64,000 bases of DNA. It comes from Microcaldota archaeon (GTDB lineage Archaea > Micrarchaeota > Micrarchaeia > Micrarchaeales > CABMGC01). The stretch is from the NCBI GenBank assembly GCA_021818925.1, contig JAKASU010000001.1:359972-423971 (forward strand). Reading direction: 5' to 3'. The translations under genes and the position numbers were made by a program. Below are positions 10,836 through 12,125 of the stretch, one piece after another (the first letter of the stretch is position 1; the number at the start of each line of letters is the position of its first letter). The notes beneath the pieces are model-generated. The model was given only the letters and a program-made list of their open reading frames with translations, made no database searches and was not told where the DNA came from.

Positions 10836-11123
10836 TCACATCCTTTCCAGGTGTCTCTGGCCGACTACGAGCGTCCTCTTCGTCTTGCTCGACACCATGA
10901 ACTCGACCACGTACGCGCTCCCGCGCTTGCCAGTCACTGTGCCCACTCTCCCCCTGTATCTCGGGTGCGGTATGTCATTGAAGATGCCCTTGGGTACTAT
11001 CGCCACGCGGTCGCCGACGCTGAAGCTCTTCATCAGGCTGCTAAGCGCAAGCTTGCTGGGCTTGTGGTGCCTGGCGAGGTGTCTCGCCCTGCCCGCGAAA
11101 AGCCCGTGCGAACGTTCGGTCAT
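10836..11123 (-). CDS. rpl21e: Ribosomal protein L21e
   Basis: MTERSHGLFAGRARHLARHHK...FSVGDRVAIVPKGIFNDIPHPRYRGRVGTVTGKRG. Confidence 0.85.
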   Translation of the reverse strand: MTERSHGLFAGRARHLARHHKPSKLALSSLMKSFSVGDRVAIVPKGIFNDIPHPRYRGRVGTVTGKRGSAYVVEFMVSSKTKRTLVVGQRHLERM

Positions 11124-11210
11124 GCTAACAACTAATATTTTCAGGATACGAGGATATAGTTGCAAGTAGGTATATAAATACCTTTCAATGCTTATAAAGG
11201 AAGTGATCAC

Positions 11211-11507
11211 ATGGCAAAGCGAGTTGTGCTGAAACCGCAGTTCAAAATCGAGAACATAGTCGCCAGCGCGGACCTTGGGGTGGAGCTTGACCTCTACGCC
11301 ATAGCCAAGGCGTCGCCAGACGTTGACTACGAGCCAGAGCAGTTCCCTGGAGCGATATACAAGATAAAGGAGCCGAAGGTCGCGCTTCTCCTCTTCAAGA
11401 ACGGGAAGATAATCTGCACCGGAGCGAAGACCGAGGCTGACATAAAGAAGGCCATAGACCAGGTAATAAAGGTAGTGAGGAACTACATACTCTCTGAGAA
11501 GAAGTAG
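11211..11507 (+). CDS. tbp: Single-repeat ('half') TATA-box-binding protein, 98 aa
   Basis: KIENIVASADLGVELDLYAIA...DYEPEQFPGAIYKIKEPKVALLLFKNGKIICTGAKTEADIKKAIDQV matches one TBP repeat; ORF stops after it. Confidence 0.85.
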   Translation: MAKRVVLKPQFKIENIVASADLGVELDLYAIAKASPDVDYEPEQFPGAIYKIKEPKVALLLFKNGKIICTGAKTEADIKKAIDQVIKVVRNYILSEKK

Positions 11508-12125
11508 CTACCTCCTCTTGCTCATCCTTCGCATCGTGAAGTGGTACACGAGGTAGAGCACGAGCGCGAAGACGAAGACCGCGGCCACGACTAGGGGGAA
11601 GCTGCTGAGCGAGAGCGCGTAGTAGCCGAACCCTATCAACATGGCGTCCCAGACCAGCGTGCCGGCTATCGAGTAGAGAAAGAATTTGCGCACCGGCATC
11701 ATGGCGAAACCGGCAGGGAAGTTTATCAGCGCTCGGACCAGCGGGATGAGCCGGGTTATGAAGACGGCGAACGCGCCGTTGGCGGCGAACCACGCGTCGA
11801 AAGCCTCGAGCCTCTCCTTCCTTATGTGGAAGAGCGAGAGGTGCTTGTATACCACATCCTTGCCGAGGAAGTATGCGACGTAGTAGTCGACGCCCATGCC
11901 GATTATGCCCCCCGCTATCACCGCTGCGAAGCCCACGACCGGGTTGACCGCGCCGATTGCGGCAAGGTAGCCCACGGCCGGCAGGACGACCTCGCTCGGG
12001 ACCGGGAACGCCGCTGCCTCGAGAAGCATCAGAGCGAATATCGCGTAGTAGCCGTACTGCGTTATTAGCGATGTGGCTGCGGAGTAGCTGAGGCTGAGAA
12101 TGCTCAGCGCAAGAGACGTAAACAT
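11508..12125 (-). CDS. DedA/SNARE-associated (VTT) family membrane protein
   Basis: 205 aa; FPVPSEVVLPAVGYLA and FITRLIPLVRALINFPAGFAMMPVRKFFLYSIAGTLVWD. Confidence 0.85.
   Translation of the reverse strand: MFTSLALSILSLSYSAATSLITQYGYYAIFALMLLEAAAFPVPSEVVLPAVGYLAAIGAVNPVVGFAAVIAGGIIGMGVDYYVAYFLGKDVVYKHLSLFHIRKERLEAFDAWFAANGAFAVFITRLIPLVRALINFPAGFAMMPVRKFFLYSIAGTLVWDAMLIGFGYYALSLSSFPLVVAAVFVFALVLYLVYHFTMRRMSKRR

Follow-up and report, generated by a model that had tools for sequence, protein, structure and literature searches.

The half-TBP locus

The window, a 64,000-nucleotide stretch of a Micrarchaeota genome, carries at 11211..11507 on the forward strand an open reading frame that runs from an ATG start to a TAG stop and encodes a 98-aa protein with a single TATA-binding protein (TBP) repeat, the sole TBP found in this genome (hereafter half-TBP). 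The Pfam TBP model (PF00352) has one match in it, covering residues 10-91 and model positions 1-84 of 85, with E=1.2e-31 and a score of 108.9 bits (cut-off 22.9). Instead of two tandem repeats in one chain, the 98 aa make up one repeat, and the product is an archaeal protein that consists of a single free-standing TBP lobe. Both intercalating phenylalanines expected per TBP lobe are present, namely F45 in EQFPG (codon 11343-11345, +) and the second minor-groove residue F62 in LLLF (codon 11394..11396, +), which is followed by a lineage-specific KNGK. The first stirrup, YEPEQFPGA (residues 40-48; 11328..11354, +), holds F45 together with E41 and E43, which correspond to the TFB-contacting Glu pair at positions C.L3.2 and C.L3.4. 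The flanking genes both lie on the reverse strand: upstream, a divergent gene for ribosomal protein L21e (10836..11123, −; recognized in a profile search) and, downstream, a convergent gene for a VTT/DedA-type membrane protein (11508..12125, −), which starts at the base right after the TBP gene. No second TBP repeat is found near 11211-11507 between these two neighbors. The original prediction of a one-repeat, TAG-terminated protein that keeps both minor-groove phenylalanines and has no second repeat hidden downstream is hence borne out by the reading frame, the single Pfam match and the opposite-strand neighbors.

Half-TBP as the only TBP of the genome

The assembly comprises 760,734 bp in 3 contigs and is 97.55% complete with 0.2% contamination. 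When the Pfam TBP model was run against all of it, the half-TBP locus was the only match, and a canonical 180-aa two-repeat TBP of the Thermococcales type recovered the same locus alone, aligned to the second repeat of this Pyrococcus-type query at 47% identity. Neither query found a full-length two-repeat TBP in this 97.55% complete assembly, which answers the whole-genome search that the original prediction had proposed and removes one of its two potential refutations, a dispensable paralog beside a full-length TBP. The latter could still sit in unassembled sequence, as the 3 contigs may lack about 2.4% of it, but we consider this extremely unlikely: the genomes of the two families in the same order (f1 and f2), closed ones included, show no two-repeat TBP among the matches listed, with the exception of G254. 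That genome also has two half-TBPs, and its two-repeat TBP is of the canonical type and lies on an 8.4-kb contig (G254:C43, 8,383 bp; L082), which is likely contamination or possibly a transfer.

The other potential refutation, a sequencing or assembly truncation, also fails. Exactly one half-TBP is present in 8/8 genomes of the same genus, with identity up to 98%, and one of these (G124) is a single contig of 771,545 bp with the half only; because the half recurs in every same-genus genome, truncation or mis-assembly is excluded. Short length is the only point that would speak for a truncated or frameshifted normal TBP, a reading of negligible probability given that the length and the stop region are constant across genera and independent assemblies and that the downstream gene abuts the half-TBP.

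Phyletic distribution

Across Micrarchaeota, 276 of the 301 genomes scanned have a TBP match, and the number of repeats per family was taken from the reading frames of representative genomes. One-repeat frames are found in f1 and f2, which constitute the window's order, and in those families read among f14-f27, while two-repeat frames are found in f3-f6 and f13; families f7-f12, by match count, have two TBP matches per genome. Named relatives with a half-TBP include Candidatus Micrarchaeota such as the complete Ca. Micrarchaeum sp. A_DKE (NZ_CP060530.1) and a Ca. Mancarchaeum MAG, and the closed or single-contig f2 genomes (G190, G245, G257 and G262, the last being A_DKE) have halves only. The proteins share the core YEPEQFPGA ... 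LLFKNGK-ICTG. The half-TBP is accordingly the rule in the window's order and no oddity of one genome. Outside the phylum, half-TBPs occur in four archaeal families (f35, f54, f72 and f75), and the other archaea read have canonical two-repeat TBPs, except f47, f58, f66 and f68. A search of viral contigs with the half-TBP as query found no relative, and the haloarchaeal plasmids read have canonical TBPs only.

Several isolated cases were seen on the way. A single-repeat TBP occurs amid two-repeat relatives in G010 of family f3 (L190), which may reflect either repeat loss or the collapse of near-identical repeats in assembly. Two frames of 95-100 aa with weak TBP-domain matches (E 3e-5 to 4e-5; G319:C1:420110-420310, L335, and G340:C2:437515-437691, L337) occur beside a two-repeat TBP and are divergent stand-alone TBP-fold proteins. 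Four genomes of family f46 (G318, G339, G359 and G379) have two divergent full-length TBPs apiece.

TBP is the textbook case of a duplication within one chain, and the stage with one lobe is regarded as lost. Ravarani et al. 2020 note in one sentence of their methods that they encountered archaeal TBPs with a single lobe, in agreement with previous work (PMC7221094), probably that of Brindefalk et al. 2013; these are possibly the same proteins as our half-TBPs. The open-access full-text literature yielded no description of half-TBPs in Micrarchaeota or of their re-fusion, and TBP goes unmentioned in the papers on A_DKE and ARMAN. Beyond the passing mentions of single-lobe TBPs, we found no earlier account in the open-access literature of their extent, their status as sole TBP or the re-fusion (see below).

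Sequence signature and origin

Half-TBPs share the lobe fold, both phenylalanines and the TFB-contacting Glu pair with canonical archaeal TBPs (Pyrococcus woesei, 1ais/1pcz; M. jannaschii, 2z8u; S. acidocaldarius, 1mp9). They differ in having one repeat instead of two, in displaying FPGA and KNGK where canonical TBPs have FPGL and [SRG]SGK, and in forming a clade separate from both the first and the second canonical repeats. Among 160 halves, the YEPEQFPGA stirrup has E at C.L3.2 in 159/160, E at C.L3.4 in 158/160 and F in 159/160. The two glutamates are the C-lobe signature that touches TFB/TFIIB (PMC7221094), and canonical second repeats have them nearly without exception (37/38 at C.L3.2 and 38/38 at C.L3.4). 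They are no signature of canonical first repeats, which at C.L3.2 have N in 13, E in 12 and D in 8 of 37, so that a homodimer of halves would bear a C-type stirrup on both subunits.

The two-repeat TBPs of this lineage (f3-f6, f13, f68, f47, f58 and f66) feature the half-TBP signature on both repeats and represent a covalent tandem, the natural fused form. Their first and second repeats are 47-78% identical (mean 66%), whereas those of canonical TBPs share 30-55% (mean 44%), and in the f68 protein (G369) the repeats are identical along a long central stretch. In a tree of 99 repeats, whose resolution is limited by alignments of ~90 columns, the halves and both repeats of the lineage's two-repeat TBPs fall into a single clade (100/97, starred), distinct from the canonical first and second repeats; within it, the first repeat of f47/f66 is sister to the second (96/87, starred), and those of f4 also group together. 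Uniting the lineage's first repeats costs 58 log units (p=0.016). Orthology of the lineage's first repeat to the canonical first repeat is rejected, with a cost of 84 log units for grouping the two (AU p=0.0006). An RpoB′ tree of 30 genomes interleaves the half and two-repeat states, with the half-bearing f72 next to its two-repeat sister f47/f66, and f3-f5, also two-repeat families, among halves. The lineage's two-repeat TBPs thus look re-fused from the half, and from these sequences a half-TBP ancestor with several re-fusions is the simplest reading; the alternative is an ancestral two-repeat TBP under concerted evolution, with at least five losses. A half-TBP in-frame tandem in G121 of family f1 (L117 / L024, REEA76), 96.7% identical over 90 nt, ends at a contig edge; it is either a re-fusion caught under way or an artifact of the assembly.

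As to where the half itself came from, the tree places its lineage beside the canonical second repeat, and a topology with a separate canonical second-repeat clade, which puts the lineage between the canonical repeats, is not rejected (AU p=0.29). Direct descent from a pre-duplication TBP, with the lineage's two-repeat TBPs as later independent fusions, appears improbable to us; the likelier route is that the first repeat was lost and re-fusion came later. An analysis of 34 species had inferred a single duplication with the first and second repeats as two clean clades (PMC4910066), a picture that the half-TBP lineage, going by its repeat sequences, contradicts.

Predicted fold and probable dimerization

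The AlphaFold2 (AF2) monomer model of the half-TBP, built from a 21-sequence alignment, has a mean pLDDT of 85.7 and a pTM of 0.69, and its Foldseek matches are single lobes of solved TBPs (TM 0.75-0.84 on the query), that is, the predicted fold is a TBP lobe. RNase HIII and DNA glycosylases likewise have a single TBP-fold unit, but as a domain of an enzyme, and these domains gave no significant match in the Foldseek search with the half-TBP model (E>0.1). The AF2 model of the naturally fused G369 protein (pLDDT 91.7, pTM 0.80) matches whole TBP saddles, with TM ~0.9 to 1mp9 and 1ais. A single chain with two such lobes is therefore predicted to make a normal saddle, which lends the homodimer indirect support, because relatives naturally fuse two such repeats.

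Accordingly, homodimerization of the half-TBP into a TBP saddle is most likely, and we posit with good confidence that it is a genuine general transcription factor, the one-lobe sole TBP of its genome, which acts as a homodimer with direction set by TFB and the BRE. Two identical half-TBPs would pair via their first strands to give a ten-stranded saddle, in which each subunit would insert its two phenylalanines, F45 and F62, into half of the TATA box and expose a stirrup (E41, E43) for TFB to bind. A single canonical TFB would dock at one end of the dimer, with either end possible, and its BRE contact would fix the facing direction of RNA polymerase.

A heterodimer, in which the partner would be another half-TBP or some unrelated protein, draws on the gene counts of the relatives. 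About 30/32 f2 genomes of at least 90% completeness have two or more half-TBP genes at separate loci, as counted by eye, and these paralogs, A and B, form separate clades in the repeat tree and are both present in the closed A_DKE (G262). In f1, however, 41 genomes have one TBP match and 34 have two, and the window's genome and all those of its genus have paralog A only, so that A is sufficient without B in this genus. Hence, a heterodimer is unlikely for the half-TBP of the window, while in relatives with two half genes, f2 among them, it is possible and probably the likelier unit. With one-gene, two-gene and re-fused relatives side by side, homodimeric, heterodimeric and fused forms become comparable, and a single lobe that serves as the only TBP opens the pre-duplication working mode to study in living cells.

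TFB, promoters and direction of transcription

The window's genome encodes a canonical TFB with a Zn-ribbon and two cyclin repeats, which scores 194 bits to the Pyrococcus TFB. Its promoters are of the BRE-TATA type, with the motif AAA-nn-TTTWWAAA lying ~38 bp ahead of the starts; a mirrored TTT, which is weaker, renders the motif near-symmetric (AAA-nn-TTTWWAAA-nn-TTT). This bears on the possibility that a half-TBP monomer binds a half-site and TFB completes the recognition, which would recall those archaeal TBPs that bend DNA only jointly with TFB (PMC4041446); the TATA core, however, is a full 8-bp near-palindrome, as would be expected for two lobes, and two half copies are fused in relatives, making a monomeric mode very unlikely. 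The TBP gene itself has a probable promoter in the near-palindromic AGGTATATAAATACCT (11168..11183, +; 28-43 nt before the ATG), and the 16 bases of this site recur, with aggtatataaatacct identical, at four of the other same-genus loci read, whereas the site is diverged, as aaggtttataaatgcc, at one more. Through the near-palindromic AGGTATATAAATACCT, a symmetric TBP might regulate its own gene.

A homodimer would constitute a fully symmetric TBP and a case for how transcription direction is maintained. The original prediction had raised this polarity as a puzzle, which we find overstated, since DNA binding by the ordinary archaeal TBP is already nearly symmetric, and TFB and the BRE orient the complex (PMC7289017, PMC6640164). 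Direction in ordinary archaea is set by the TFB-BRE contact (PMC7289017), and in P. furiosus, with a normal TBP, near-symmetric BRE-TATA-BRE promoters transcribe both ways (PMC6640164); by analogy, polarity with the half-TBP is probably set in the known way, by TFB and BRE.

Promoters were scored with a fixed TATA matrix in place of a free palindromic motif search, which had converged on other palindromes at A_DKE tandem genes and failed for the haloarchaeal control; this control gave 13 and 16 sites only. The A-T flank difference of tandem genes was 0.11 (CI -0.00 to 0.22) against 0.18 (0.04 to 0.32) in a two-repeat relative, in small samples. Promoter symmetry was rejected as proof of a homodimer: it does not discriminate, because so few promoters cannot reveal a difference and because the same near-symmetry is seen in P. 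furiosus, whose TBP is normal (PMC6640164).

Besides the canonical TFB, the window's genome has a second TFB of 469 aa (L138:751-2160; G000:C3, about 462,400-463,850). Its Zn-ribbon is degenerate, and it is extended at the C-terminus by a segment that has no Pfam match but resembles a cyclin repeat, which would be the third (shuffle z 2.3-3.9 in comparisons with three of the four known repeats). Long TFB frames or additional TFB matches are also seen in two genomes of the same genus (G128 and G126).
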